From positions 4,585,161 through 4,649,160 of the forward strand of contig CP099851.1 of NCBI GenBank assembly GCA_030062745.1: a stretch of DNA of 64,000 bases, in the 5' to 3' direction. Numbering within the stretch: the stretch's first letter is position 1; each line of letters begins with the position of its first letter. The notes beneath the pieces are model-generated. The model was not told where the DNA came from, did no database searches, and saw only the letters and a list, made by a program, of their open reading frames with translations. The position numbers and the translations under genes were made by a program. This DNA comes from Capitulum mitella. Lineage: Eukaryota > Arthropoda > Thecostraca > Pollicipedomorpha > Pollicipedidae. Shown piece after piece: positions 3,201-12,200 of the stretch.

Positions 3201-6200
3201 CCTCTCGAAAGACGAACTGCTTTACACCAGACTTTTTTGGCGTCTTGCCAGATTCACTAAAACTGTCTAGGCTCTAGTCAGGGTATTTCACCACACAGTC
3301 AGTGCTCAGCTGTGGAATTGCTCCTCTACGTAATCTCCTTGCTATTGTTTTCAAATAAGGACTGTTGACATCGAAACTAAAAAGCCGGCGGTTTTGCACC
3401 GAAATTTCCTGAACAAGCCGCAAGCTGTTAATATAGCTCACCCTTTCCGCCTCCACCACCTTCCTCCTTGGCGCCCGACTGGCCCGGGTGGTCAGCGAAA
3501 ATATCCACCAGCAAGGTGTTCTTGCCCTTCTTGAACTGGTCCACCACTGTGTCGTTGAGCGGGTCCTTGTTTCTTCTCCAGCCAGCCGGTCAGGTTGTAG
3601 TTGACCTGGAAAGGGGGAGATCACGTGGTCTCGAGGGAGGGGCTGAACACTCGCTCCCTCTAGCCAATGTTGAGATGTTTTCGAGACGGTCAGTCAGTCC
3701 GGCCTGAACGTTCGATCGACGAATTCATGTAGTTAGGTTTCAGAAATAGCTTGATCTCTAAAGGTTCAAACGAATTAACATAGCATGACTAATGTATGCG
3801 TTTCGTTGGCCGCAGACACTGTATCGTCGCAATGTTTGCGACAGCGTTCGCATGCACATATCACAGCACTCGCATCGAGATAAGAGCATCATGTTAATAC
3901 CGCAGTATGACAGCATTCGCACTAAAGACGTCGTCAGCGATAAGATCTGATCAACGGAAATACGGCCAACCTCAGATGAGTCTTCGCTTTACCACACGTT
4001 CTTTGCGAACCGGCCTGTTTGGCAGCGTCAGTTGCCAACAGGCGTGCCCTGAGGCAGCGGAGTGTGGGCGCTTCCGCGCCACTGCCTCCGCAGCATCAAT
4101 GTCTCACAGTGCCGGCGTAGTGGACGATGGCGAAGTGGGACTCGCTCTGACCCGGCTTGGCCGGCCTCGGCTTGACGAACAGCGGGCACTTGCCCAGGTG
4201 GTTGGTCTTGAGCTTCTCCTCGAACGTCTTGTCCGTGGCCTTGGGGAACATGCTCTCCTCCTCCAGGATCGAGAGCACGCCCATCGGCTGTCGGAGTCCG
4301 CCGGGAGTCAGCGCAGGTCACGTAATGAGATCGCAACATAAAACGCCTACTCTGTAATTCCCAGCCATACCTGTCCACAGCTATCGCACGCATTCAGAAA
4401 TGTCATACAGTCATACGCAAGTTAGAAAAATGGGGCACACATACGATCTTCGCTTTGCTTTCCCTCCCAATAAATCGAAATCAGACAGTTTATAAGAAAC
4501 CAGAAACTCGATTATCTGTTGACGCATATGACAAAAATATCAAACGCAGTCATCAGTAAACAAGACGGATCAACAGATGACTCTGTAGACATCCACTACA
4601 TTTACTCTCGCTTTTACGCACCTTTTCCATGAGGTCGATACAAGCCTGCAGATCCATGCCGAAGTCCATGAACACCCAGTCGATCTCCTCACGCTTGTAT
4701 TCTTCTTGCTCTAGTACGAACATGTGGTGGTTGAAGAACTGCTGCAGCTTCTCGTTGGTGAAGTTGATGCACATCTGCTCGAAACTGTTGAACTGCGTGG
4801 GAGAACATGAAAGATTAGATCACATTTATGAGGGCATGACTCCGAAAACAAGGAACGAAATCCAACCCTTTTGCCAAACTAATCACTTTCAGGCGAATAT
4901 ATTGGAAAGGCCAGCCAAGATACGACTGCAAGTACTAAAGGCATCTTAACAGTGCTCAGGAATCCCAATTTGGTGGTCCTTGTCAGGCATCGTGTGGCAA
5001 AAAACCAGCTGCAGTGGCAGCACTTAAGACAAGAAACATCTCAGGACTTCTCGAAGGGAGTCCAGCGGAATGAGGCTCAGCCCACGCACGTCGAAGATCT
5101 CGAAGCCGAAGATGTCGAGCACGCCGATGAAGGAGGCGCGCTTCTGCTTGGTGTCCAGGGTCACGTTGACCTTCTTCACCAGCCACTTGAAGAGACGGTC
5201 GTACATATTCTTGGCCAGAGCACCAACGGAATAGTACACCTGTAGAGGAAACAAAAACCCGTCGATAATGTAGATGGACAGAGAAAAGGCACTTTCATTT
5301 TAAATCTTTCCGTTTTATGTCTCACTGACTCCTATGCATACTGTTTTCAGGGTAGGCAACGTATTATAAAGACATATTGCCCTATTTTTATGAGGCCAAG
5401 CTATTGCCAAAACAATAAAGTACAACAAAACGCATAATGTCAGGCTGAGTTCATCGCTGTCTCCGGCGACATTGTGAAGGTACAGATTTAACTCAATATT
5501 GGCGTCCTGTCGTGGCAACACTACTGTAATCTATTGTCGCAGAAAACCGTGACCGATAGTTCTGCTGTTCGAGCCCCGGTTTGCGGGTCCTGACAAAGCG
5601 GGTTCGAGTCGCCTCAGCGCCTGGTATTTAGCGCACGGATTACATGGTAACTAACCAATATAGGGTTACATCGACTACCACACGGCTTTAACGGTACCCT
5701 GGTTAGTGCGCTAAAATTTCGACGTAAAGTCGGCCGTAACCGGGAATTGCACAGTGGGATGAAAAAGGCTGACGCCCTTGTAACAAGGTCTGCTTAGCAC
5801 GGGCGCCGATCTCTAACATCACACTAGCGAGCCACTCCGACCGACTTGGCAGAGGAGTTTCGTATTCCAAACATTGAAAACCGCCTTTTGTAGCGAAATA
5901 AGACATGTTTGATGATACTTTATGCTTTCTTTCTTTCTTATTTTTGCCTAAACTAATTATCCAACAAAAAATCATTCTTCACCATTTTCGCACACTGATG
6001 GTTCACTCCTTTCCACCCTTTTTCTCGCTGAGCTTATCAGCGTAGCCAAGCGGTGCCGTCTAAACACCGTTCTCGCTAAACCGGACCACGTGTGCGTAGT
6101 GTGTCCAGCGTAACCAGTCAGATGTATTTCGACAGTGCTGAACCTCACCTGGTCCTTGTTGCGGCCCTGGTGGACGAACTCGTTGCCGACCTTGATCCTC

Positions 6201-9200
6201 GGTTTCAGCAGGTTCTTGTACAATTCCGGTCCGTCGATGCAGAGGAGCTTGCTGACCCTCTCGCCCTCCTGTGATTTAGGTCAGGTCAGGTCAGGTCAGG
6301 TCGGGTCAAGCCAGGAACGTTCAGTTTAAACAAGGTCATAAGCAGGGTAGCGGGTACATCTCGTTTTTACATAGGTCAAATGAATTCATATTTGGTCAGC
6401 TCATCCTTCTGAAAATCAGGTCAAACAGAGGTTAACAAAGTACTCTCACGTAACTGGAAACAGGGGAAATAAAATGTACGAAAATTATATGATCAATCCG
6501 GGATCCTAAAAATTTCAACCATTTCAGTGAAACAAAAAACAACAGTAGTCCAGGAAGCAAACGATAAACCGGTGTACCTGCGCCTCGTTATATGATTCAT
6601 CAAGTGGAGTGCATGGGTCTGGTCATACACACAGACATCGGGCGTCCTGTTCAGTCCCACCATGGTGACGTAGTTTTCTCACTTCGGTTTTCCTCGTGAG
6701 CAAAACACATCCTTACCTTTTCTGGAAACATCTTAACTCTGATTTACCTTACAAGTCACTCCCACATCGACAAACTTCTCTATGTTTCGCCATTGTGGAT
6801 TTTATGTTTCGCCCTTGGTAGATGCGCTACCACAGTCTGCGACTGGAACTCCAGTTGCTGGTCGCTGTCGTACCAATCCTTGTTATGGCTGTCCTTCGTT
6901 ATGGTGCAGTATTTATAATTACACACTACCTGCGATAAAACATAGGCATCTGCATGTCTAATCCGCGATCATCTTATCTGCATACCGTGGTGGTTTCGCT
7001 TGTACCGTTCGGGAAGCTCATATGTTGCCGATGTGAACCATATTAAATCTCAGTGAGTTCTTGTGTAATAATGCGACTGAATATTTATCTGTTCAAAGAA
7101 TGTTCCGCCGTTTGTTTGAATGTTCAAGGTTGAATGTTTGAAGTGGAGCTGGGTACCAAACTATGGTCATGCAGGGCAACACCCTTTCCATTCGTCGCCT
7201 GGGTAGGCCACTGTGGGGTGACAGAGTGGGTTGGGGGAGGGTATCCGCAGGGGTGGGGCAGTTTAGACGTGCGATGAACTCGGCGCCTCTACCGTCCGGC
7301 AGAGTTATCCAGCACACCTCCTGCTGGGTGGGGTGACGGGGTGCAGACGCATGAGGTGAGGCCCATTATCAAGCCGCCCTCTGGGAGGCTTGATAGTGTG
7401 CCACGGGCACGTGCACACTTCATGGGGCACGTGCTTCTTCATGATGATGCAACACTCAGCCAGAATCACTGTTTGGGGGAGGGGGAGGGCACGAGGGGAA
7501 TCGTGCTGTCAAACAGGGAAGACGGAGACGTTTGCCACCGTCCGGGCGAGGGGGGGGGGCTGGCGTGCACTGTTCCGGGTACAATCCACCACCTTATGTG
7601 GACTTCGAGCCGGGTGTTCAAACAGTAATGAACTGGTGGGGAAAGTCGGAACAAAACGTGAAAAAACCAAACCCGTCGGAGCTCACTGAGCCGGTTTGTA
7701 AGCTTTCATGCGTTCGATAAGAAAAGCGCGGTCCATGCGCGAGACGAAAAACCGGGTTTACTCGCCAAACACCACATGCGGTTAGAGTGCACTCATCGAC
7801 AGTTAACGCGCGGCCAGCGCTGGTGAAGTGTGTTATCTCGCTTGCTCCAGCTAGCTCGTAAGATAAGGCGATGTCTCTATCGGAAGCAGGCGCTTGAACA
7901 GAAAATTTCCGCTGGCTCACAAGCTCAAAAGCCGACTCTCGCTCGGCTAGCGCGGCGCCTCGCGCAGACCACCGCGCGTCAAAAAGACGCCCGCCACGGA
8001 CGACGGCGAGGCCGGAGGCCTGCGTTCGCCTTACGATTTCGCCTTCCGCTTCGGCCTGCTCCTCCCTGCCGCGCTGTTTGAACTTAAGCGTGCCCATGTG
8101 CATCACGGCCGCCACCACTTCGTAAATGTGCAGCTTCTCGTCGGGCTCGAAGCCCAGAATGTCGAACGCTTGCTGGGGGCCGCGGAGGAAGAGCGTCAGC
8201 AGGGGAACATACCGCGGTGCCGTCCGCCTCGGCCTGCTCCTCGCGGCCCTTCTGCTTGAACTTCATCTCGCCCAGGTGCATGACCGCCGCCACGATGCTG
8301 TAAATGTTGTCCTTCTCCTCCTGGCTGAAGTTGAGCACGTCGAAGGCGGTCTGGAAAATCGGCCCGCGTCCGCCGCGTGAAAGGTCGAAACCCGGGGTCC
8401 CGCGGAGGCGCGGTAAGCAGCCCACGGCGACAAAACAGTGCCAAGTAAGAAGCGGCCTGCTGGCTGCAATAACAGTCAGCACGAATGACATCCAGTTGCA
8501 GACGAAAAACGCTTCGTTCAGGTGAAGAACAGGAAGCATAAGCCGCAGCGAATCAGCGGAGCCAGCTGGATTGCCTAGACGATGCTTCATTACACATTGC
8601 TGTTGATTACCAGGTGCCTTTGGTCCTGACGGCACAAGAAGGTACATCCGCATATGTACGCACGTGGACCTCAGCCTGGTGGTTTGTCTGAGTGTAAAAT
8701 GCTCGATCCTTTGTTGCGTGTGCAGTTTGAGAACAACGAACGCAAAATAGCGCAAAGGCCGACAGAGCGGAGATAACACACGACTAAGACGCCTACGAGT
8801 GTATATAGCAGAGTATACGAAAAACTAAACTACAAAAATCGTAAAAAATCGCACTCTCCCTTTCTTGCCATGCTGATTCGAGGCGTCACGCAGTCACCCG
8901 TGGCTACATACCCGCGTCCTGAAACTGGAACTGCATGAAATAAGCTCCGAATATCCATCCTCGCTACGATTCTGCCACAGCTACCAAGATCAGTCCGTCT
9001 CCAACGGTTGCAGCGTTTCCACACACGAGCATTTCAAATGCGACCTTGAACGATCAAACGCGGGTTCAGCGACCGTCGCGAATTGCTCATTTCGGGCCAA
9101 ACTGCGCGGATCCAACCAAACGGGACTCCTGTCGTCCTCGTCGACACATTACTTACGTCGGTCATCTTCATCTCCTCGTTGTCGTCGATGCTCTCGACGG

Positions 9201-12200
9201 TGGTCTTGCCGTTGGAGACGTAGTGGTAGTCGTAGATGTCATTCGTCAGAAGCAGTTTACCTGTGCGTGATAACAATCGCAATGCTTTAGAGTGAGCTCT
9301 TTCAGTTTTAAGCCGCATCAAAATTCATCGCAAATCCTATGGGGAAGGGAAACACATGGCAATTAGGTAGCCACATTATAATGGTTTCATATACGGCCTA
9401 TATACGACCTTGGTTTTAAATCCGACCTTATACAGGCATTGGTTTCATTCATCAACGGTGTCAATTAAAAATAACTTTCGTGCCATTTTCGGGCCTGGCA
9501 GTATCGAACCGTTTTTCGTGCACTAGCAATGCTAGCTTGTATAACCTCCACACTCCAGAGCGGTGCCCTTCACCTCATAACCTCAACACAGTCATCCACG
9601 GATCCAGCAGTGTAAATGTGTTTGGAAGACAGAGGCCTGTATCCGCTTTTTCCAGTTCCCAATTCGACCTGGCCAGCCGAGAGGCTGCTTGATATTACCG
9701 CACCCCTCCCCCTTCCAAAGTCCTGGACCCCCGTCTGGCAGCATTCTCTACCGCGGCTCTGGACACCCACCGAGGAGCCCGTCGATGGCGTTGGACATGA
9801 TCTGGTAGAAGATGTGGTAGGAGCGCTCCAGCGGGCCCTGCGAGATGACGCGGCGCCTTCTCCAGCAGGTAGGTCTCGATGTCGGCGCCGGCCAGCTTGC
9901 CCAGGGGGCCGAAGTGGATCCGGATAAACTTGCCCTGCCCAGCGGCGAGGAAACCCAGTCAGACGACCCCCCGTTTGGGAATCGCAAGGAGTGAGGTGGC
10001 AGTACCGGTGCCGTGTACTACAGTCTTACAGCGTGCCCCGTTAAAGCCGCACGCCGCAGTTTCCAGGGAAAACTTTCATCGCGTGCATTAAAGTGTGCGC
10101 AGACAGTACGCGGTGGGGCATTCGCGCGACCCGTGGAAGCCTGCGCTCCCGACAGAAATGCATCATGACGCGGGGAAGACGGGAGTGCCATCAGGCGGAC
10201 GTCACGGCGAGCAGGAGCGCGCCGCTCCACTTACGAAGCGGGAGGAGTTGTCGTTACGCGTGGTCTTGGCGTTGCCGAAAGCCTCCAGCACGGGGTTCGT
10301 CTGGACGACCTGGTCCTCCAGGTTGCCCTGCGGCGAGAGAGGGAAATGCAGCGTCATTTCTGGACGTCGCTTTCCGTTCAGATAGTCAAAGAACAGACAT
10401 TTGCACTCATTTGTAGAAGCATGTCTTTGCTTGACGAGAATGACAGCGTCTTGAAAACCGGACGTTAAGGAGGTTTGGACAGCAGAGTCAGAGCGGCAGC
10501 GTGGCGGGCTTTAGGTTCGAGTCCCAGAACGGGCACCTGTAGTTGGCCCGAGATCGAAAGGGTCAGCCAGGTCTGGGGCGGCCATGTCGTGGAGTTGCAC
10601 GGCACAATAGAGATCCTCCAGCGCCATCTGGTTCAGCCACTTGAGGCAACATTACTCCATTTCTTGGGGAATACCTGGGTGGTGGAGTCAGGGTCCACCA
10701 ACAAGCTTGGATTGGGATTGGTGCTAACCCATTCAACACATTCGTGCTAAATAAGAAAATACAAACTCATGGTGAAAACTTCTCGCTAGAAATAAAACGA
10801 TCGGCTAGGGTCGAAGCCTTTGCTCCTCAAAGAAATGATTACGTCATTTCCTCCTGTAATTCAACACGAGCTAAACGTTTTGGGGTAGCGGCAGGACGGA
10901 GCCCACTGAAACACTGGTACTGTCGAGTCACCGACTCACCTTGGAGGGCTGTTGGGTCTTCTTCTTGCCCGTGGCGCCGACGTTGGCGAAGTAGGTGATG
11001 ACCTTCTTGGTGTTCTCTGTCTTTCCAGCGCCCGACTCACCGCTGGGGGCCGCACATTATCATCTCAGGTCACGGTTTGCCGGAGCTATCGGCCTATATG
11101 TTTGGTAGGATTTGTTCAGCGCTGCTGCTGAAAGTGTGTCACTGAAGTCCAGAACGTGACGATCCCTTCCGAACGGGTTGCTGGCTTCGCCTTTCACACC
11201 TAAAGACTCCTGGCCCATTTACGTGACTCCTTAACACATGTCGTGAAAAGTAATGCATTTTTCGGTCGATCGTAATGGTAAGACCTTTATTTGTCCCCTT
11301 TCTCAGCCATGATGTCAGGAGAAACAAGACGCGAAGAGCAGAGTCAGGTATTTGTCGAGAAGATTGCACTTACGTGATAAGGATGGACTGGTTCACGCCA
11401 TCTGCAAACAGGAGCCGAACGTTACACACTGTCTGAAATTATGTCACTGGGTGACAGGAAGACTTTGAAGATCAGAGGTGATCGCTGAAATTCAGAGAAA
11501 TCCAGATGAGCGTTGGGACTATTTTTTTATCTGAAGTCTCATCATTATGATGATGTATATAGCTGGAGGTGTTAGAATCACAGCGACAATGTGCAGGGGA
11601 TGGCAGATGATGAATGTGGTATACGGTCATCTCAGCGAGAGTTACCGCTACGCATGGGCATGTCTGAATCCTTTGAAAGACGAACTTTTTTGGGACTGGG
11701 TGAAATCCACCGTTCACAAGTTTCATCCTATATGCGCCCAAGTTTGAGACTAATGAGACGCCTTATGGGACACATGACGAGTGAAGACCTATTTCCTTCC
11801 TGTTTGCATCATTTCTTTCCCTTTGCGCATTTCTCAACACACATGAATAGTTATCGATCGATTTCAGTATTCTGTATCCGTAGAACTGCAAGTTTGAACG
11901 GTACCGGCGTCCTTGATATTGTTTGCTGCAGTTGTTGGGCAGGCCAGAAAACATGCATGGGAAAATAGGTCTAAGCATTACTCCAGGAACAGTCATGAGG
12001 AATAAAGAGTTTGCAGGCCAATGCACTGCAAATGCAGCTACATAAAATTCAAAGTATTGAGCTACCTTCCGATGAAAATTTTATGACTTAGTGCCTAGTG
12101 ATTGCGAAGTTATTGGTCTCGAGAAACCGTCATGGCCAGTCCGGGCTGGGCCAGTCCGCTCAATTAGATCTGTATTTTGCTAGCTGAGATGAGACTCACT

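Follow-up and report, generated by a model that had tools for sequence, protein, structure and literature searches.

The exon pair and its place in the motor domain

The window, meaning the whole stretch of 64,000 nucleotides analysed here, has a gene for muscle myosin heavy chain (Mhc) on its reverse strand. The genome comprises 477 Mb in 16 contigs, and the gene is referred to as C13 after the contig of the window, the other Mhc genes being named C14, C15 and C16. Exons were placed by spliced alignment to Lethocerus myosin (7kog), and the exon order was also aligned to 8u95 and 3jbh. The features around the pair are as follows.

9260-9157, reverse strand: upstream Mhc exon (exon 9), MXE cluster-5 position; single copy found; spliced alignment to Lethocerus myosin 7kog
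8350-8213, reverse strand: exon 10A, 138 nt, 46 residues, phase 0; assigned to the A-type of MXE cluster-6
8212-8173, reverse strand: spacer between 10A and 10B, exactly 40 nt, GTATGT...CCCAG (GT..AG)
8195-8201, reverse strand: branch-site-like TGCTGAC, adenine at window position 8196; predicted from the sequence and motif statistics
8172-8035, reverse strand: exon 10B, 138 nt, 46 residues, phase 0; assigned to the B-type of MXE cluster-6
6268-6149, reverse strand: downstream exon 11; single copy found; spliced alignment to 7kog

The two middle exons are identical at 93 of 138 nucleotides and 29 of 46 amino acids, and the first-pass annotation, which had given this residue identity together with two 138-nt exons of one phase and a 40-nt gap, was correct to the base. 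It had also placed the pair at motor residues 335-380; the segment is the right one, with the numbering corrected to residues 333-378 by a count along the alignment to Drosophila 8u95. Exons 9260-9157 and 6268-6149 join the pair in frame, at phase 0. No third copy of the exon was found in the window by tblastn at E values up to 10, all other matches to the exon peptides having E values of at least 0.8. In 20,000 simulations that placed 45 random substitutions on 10A, no copy kept 29 identical residues (the mean was 18 and the maximum 26), and a stop codon arose in 72%, showing that the likeness of 10A and 10B is not due to chance and that both copies have been constrained. We take the segment to belong to the upper 50-kDa region of the motor and to comprise a helix, a strand and loop 4.

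Alignment to 7kog, 8u95 and 3jbh puts the pair immediately downstream of the cluster-5 exon of the motor, covering loop 4, and the variants agree in length (138 and 138 nt), in frame (phase 0) and in sequence (29/46 residues). On the strength of this position, the inclusion of loop 4, the equal length, the frame and the similarity, the pair is identified from its sequence as MXE cluster-6 of muscle Mhc, with its alternatives A and B. This kind of pair is already known, which the first-pass annotation had overlooked, and the present one is a new example of it. The Mhc exclusive-exon clusters are numbered by Kollmar and Hatje (2014; PMC3912159), in whose scheme, as given in the available excerpts, loop 4 falls in cluster-6 and the origin of that cluster is placed in the protostome ancestor. 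Cluster-6 is reported there and in the excerpts of Odronitz and Kollmar (2008; PMC2257972) from Daphnia pulex and Capitella teleta, with the Daphnia cluster described as exon 11, which follows immediately on the alternative exon close to the ATP site.

Compared by published description, the present pair resembles exon 11 a/b of Daphnia pulex Mhc1 and the Capitella teleta exons in its position, in containing loop 4 and in having two variants matched in length. It differs from both descriptions in that the gene belongs to a set of at least four Mhc paralogues, two of which have the pair, only the A-type being found in the other two. Furthermore, Daphnia variant b is described as closer to other Mhc proteins (excerpts of PMC2257972), whereas the picture is mixed here, the C13 A and B exons matching Lethocerus at 36/46 and 31/46 residues and Drosophila at 29/46 and 32/46. 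The constancy of this segment in Drosophila Mhc, pointed out in the first-pass annotation, agrees with the same excerpts but is no sign of novelty.

The spacer, the likely branch motif and intron lengths

Adenines occur in the 40-nt spacer at positions 3, 17 and 39, of which that at +17 is the sole internal one. It lies within TGCTGAC, 17 nt from the 10A donor and 23 nt from the AG, so the earlier description of a branch-like TGCTGAC with its A about 17 nt from the donor holds exactly (+17, window position 8196). By the standard of these Mhc genes the donors of the pair are rather weak, at the 17th and 18th percentile, with the acceptors at the 26th and 64th.

A total of 81 introns was obtained from the spliced alignments across the motor regions of the four Mhc genes, and 72 were kept. 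The nine dropped introns (64, 106, 148, 181, 185, 374, 412, 554 and 1032 nt) adjoin loop 1 or the frameshifted exons and were judged to be aligner artefacts with tiny exons and broken frames. Five of the nine are shorter than 209 nt and none is shorter than 64 nt. Among the introns kept, two of C13 (263 and 352 nt) likewise end at artefacts of this kind. The kept introns have a minimum length of 209 nt and a median of 736 nt.

The motif CTGAC is present at -15 to -45 in 26/72 of these introns, against 2.1 expected by shuffling, and in only 2-5/72 in each of four other upstream bins, making it very likely, as judged from these counts, that CTGAC is the branch motif of these Mhc genes. The distance from its adenine to the AG is 17-31 nt in 29 of 37 cases and 20-24 nt in 18 of 37; the corresponding distances are 23 nt for 10B and 26 nt for the B exon of C16. 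CTGAC is found at +10 to +40 in 8/72 introns as well, so that its occurrence close to a donor is in itself nothing unusual. The shortest distance from a donor to CTGAC in the 26 introns is 187 nt.

Transcripts including both A and B, or skipping both, keep the reading frame. Retention of the 40-nt spacer creates a stop codon in the window gene, the sole product to do so among those examined. The corresponding spacer of C16, at 72 nt, is a multiple of three and has no stop, so that its retention would be read through.

Paralogues, the age of the pair and other clusters

A genome-wide search for the 10A peptide yielded six matches, located at four places (12 candidates scored). The genome holds at least three further Mhc genes, C14, C15 and C16. 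C16 has a second pair of 138-nt exons, one of the A and one of the B type, with a spacer of 72 nt. Internal adenines in that spacer occur at +25 and +46 only, both less than 50 nt from the donor; the latter belongs to a CTGAC, 26 nt from the AG. C14 and C15 have one A-type exon each, and no B-type exon was found in the 10-kb stretches searched.

Across 452 codons from the remaining motor exons, the gene pairs nearest to each other are C13-C14 and C15-C16. The B exons of C13 and C16 group together, with support of 94/93 for protein and 91/95 for DNA, and have in common [17 protein letters not shown]; the A exons group with the outgroups at a support of only 62/76. In four-point bootstraps the exons were joined by type in 1889/2000 replicates for protein and 1775/2000 for DNA, by gene in 20/2000 and 0/2000, and crosswise in 91 and 225, respectively. 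Third positions alone gave 1247/2000 by type and 140/2000 by gene. Between the two B exons dN is 0.16 and dS 0.87 (dN/dS 0.19), indicating that B is under constraint. A and B within one gene differ with dS of 0.62 and 0.46 and dN/dS of 0.62 and 0.54.

Because the exons group by type and not by gene, the A/B pair is most likely older than these gene copies, with B since lost from C14 and C15. Few sites bear on this age, given that dS between A and B within a gene is no larger than that between the B exons and that the third positions group weakly, and a tree of 46 codons is coarse.

Adjacent copies of one exon are likewise found in clusters 2, 5, 7, 8, 9 and 10 of the same four genes. The minimum lists are clusters 2, 5, 6, 7, 9 and 10 for C16; 5, 7 and 10 for C15; 7, 8, 9 and 10 for C14; and 6, 9 and 10 for the window gene. 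In the 22 other neighbouring pairs of alternative exons that were counted, the copies lie 292-1770 nt apart. This count omits two apparent C13 pairs that are the frameshifted exons, as well as the second loop-2 and extra converter exons of C15 and C16, where the gaps measure roughly 400 nt and upwards. In contrast to the cluster-6 spacers, these gaps are long, and exclusion there would not be steric. By analogy with the published clusters, these other pairs too are presumably exclusive. The window gene itself has a second alternative pair at 157-246 and 1308-1397, in the MXE cluster-9 position, with EQLNN and EQLNG in its two copies, 1061 nt apart.

Proposed mutually exclusive use and its probable enforcement

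The first-pass annotation had proposed either/or use of the two exons, enforced by steric exclusion. We regard this as the best reading and give a probability of about 0.75 to its full form, namely that the exons are a cluster-6 A/B pair, that one of them is used per transcript, and that joining of A to B is blocked by the crowding of U1 and U2 in the 40-nt spacer. Each transcript would carry either 10A or 10B between exon 9 and exon 11, yielding two versions of the motor segment. The 17 nt would leave no room for U1 on the 10A donor together with U2 on the predicted 10B branch site; double inclusion would be blocked, and the 40-nt spacer would not be excised as an intron. The predicted 10B branch site would still serve the joining of exon 9 to 10B. 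Steric exclusion forbids double inclusion only, and neither picks A or B nor stops the skipping of both; the choice between A and B would be set by other regulators.

The predicted branch adenine, at 17 nt from the donor, falls well inside the limit of about 50 nt that can be drawn from the excerpts of PMC5740500, PMC7969005 and PMC6692369. The last of these gives the donor-to-branch minimum as about 50 nt and reports that 35 nt abolished assembly in one pre-mRNA. Sterically enforced exclusivity is described for human OGDH exons 4a/4b, with branch points 25-41 nt from the donor (excerpts of PMC7969005), and 57 of 629 human exclusive-exon clusters are listed as potential steric cases (excerpts of PMC5740500). 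The present pair is like these OGDH exons and like alpha-tropomyosin (Smith and Nadal-Ginard, as cited in the excerpts of PMC6692369) in having a branch site, here a predicted one, too near the upstream donor for both snRNPs, which would block double inclusion. It is unlike OGDH in that the whole spacer is 40 nt, the predicted distance of 17 nt is below the 25-41 nt there and the branch point is predicted.

Exon anatomy, reading frames, the paralogous pair, coding constraint and the branch-motif statistics can all be read off the DNA itself. Motif statistics, intron lengths, the paralogous pair and the logic of the frames lend indirect support to exclusive use and to steric exclusion, the latter of which on these grounds appears well supported. 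We infer that the predicted branch site is used, that the spacer is not excised and that the exons are used alternatively in muscles. The steric explanation is weaker in C16, where the spacer measures 72 nt and the candidate branch site at +46 is near the threshold of about 50 nt.

Several other routes to the same exon arrangement were weighed. The exons might be kept exclusive by regulators, such as repressors that act on one exon or RNA structures that compete with each other, the short spacer being incidental. The 22 other neighbouring pairs would, if exclusive, have to be controlled otherwise than sterically, and the 72-nt spacer of C16 points the same way, but short spacers occur solely at cluster-6 among the pairs counted, and do so in both genes that keep the pair. 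The local RNA fold of 10A, spacer and 10B is also ordinary (z 0.26, with 57/100 shuffles as good), and since it is no better than that of shuffled sequences, a local RNA structure is an unlikely enforcer. We consider control by regulators unlikely, although it is the strongest of the alternatives to steric exclusion. The spacer could also be a working ultra-short intron, in which case inclusion of both exons would give an in-frame duplication of 46 residues. The joined A and B frame is open, the GT..AG splice sites score inside the range of the other introns, and human introns of 43 nt are spliced (excerpts of PMC8363638). Indeed, the splicing of human introns of 43-65 nt in the same excerpts makes an intron of 40 nt extreme yet possible. 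Against this, 17 nt from donor to branch is far under the published minimum (excerpts of PMC6692369), none of the 72 kept introns is shorter than 209 nt, and the product would presumably double the helix, strand and loop inside the motor core. At 40 nt the spacer probably falls below the length that can be spliced out, and a working intron here seems very improbable. Exclusion through U2/U12 incompatibility, or through frameshift and NMD after double inclusion, draws on known enforcers of exclusive exons (excerpts of PMC5740500) and has next to no claim on this pair. U2/U12 incompatibility was rejected because there is no U12-type donor, the best U12 donor reaching 4/6 and the best branch 6/8 of the U12 consensus; NMD was rejected because A joined to B is in frame without a stop, and the frame being kept, NMD cannot enforce the choice.

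One exon might instead be dead, or the whole window gene decaying, with no alternative use at all. In the assembly, two of its motor-domain exons carry a 1-nt frameshift each, near 9854 (exon 9771-9934) and near 3571 (exon about 3442-3605), a caveat absent from the first-pass annotation. Both exons are intact in C14, C15 and C16, in whose scanned Mhc blocks no frameshift was seen. The scan covered tblastx blocks, with 27-35 query blocks matched per gene pair, and the fetched stretches; two further breaks, one in C13 and one in C14, were in repeat-like blocks outside the Mhc exons. The window gene also has 18 unique amino-acid changes in 452 residues, compared with 9-14 in its paralogues. However, the frames of 10A and 10B are both intact, and dN/dS is low both between C13 and C14 (0.145, over the 452 codons of the other motor exons) and between the two B exons (0.19). 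Together with this value of 0.145, eight adjacent pairs among 94 cytochrome P450 matches that look frameshifted make it plausible that the Mhc frameshifts are assembly errors, although decayed P450 genes would look alike. Many of the P450 matches are single open frames over nearly the whole domain, apparently intronless. Recent decay of the window gene may have occurred, and the frameshifts, if real, may leave it unable to make a full-length myosin; we hold a dead exon or a decaying gene to be improbable, somewhat more so than control by regulators.

As to precedent, a limited search of open papers turned up no report of steric exclusion for Mhc exons in titles or abstract openings, and in the available excerpts of PMC3912159 and PMC2257972 the word "steric" concerns loop 4 of class-I myosins. 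A literature search likewise gave no title on barnacle Mhc exons or barnacle intron length. As far as we know, the window pair would be the cleanest case of steric exclusion in an Mhc gene.

The pair offers a natural test, outside vertebrates, of the steric rule for exclusive splicing. The paralogue, whose spacer differs, serves as an internal replicate, and the remaining, long-spaced clusters serve as internal controls. A further gain is an Mhc family in which several genes and alternative exon copies occur together. The structures closest to its myosins come from insects and a tarantula, which suggests an arthropod. Copepods are described as having several Mhc genes without exclusive exons (excerpts of PMC3912159), and so, in other published excerpts, is a shrimp; if the animal is a crustacean, as the first-pass annotation takes it to be, it departs from this pattern. 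A tentative extension, to which we give slightly less than even odds, is that physical exclusion is built into cluster-6 and no other cluster, that selection on length has kept its spacer below the donor-to-branch limit through gene duplication (40 nt in one paralogue, and 72 nt without an internal adenine past +46 in another), and that two of the four genes left the arrangement by losing B. If this is true, clusters 2, 5, 7, 8, 9 and 10, with their long spacers, would need longer-range control.
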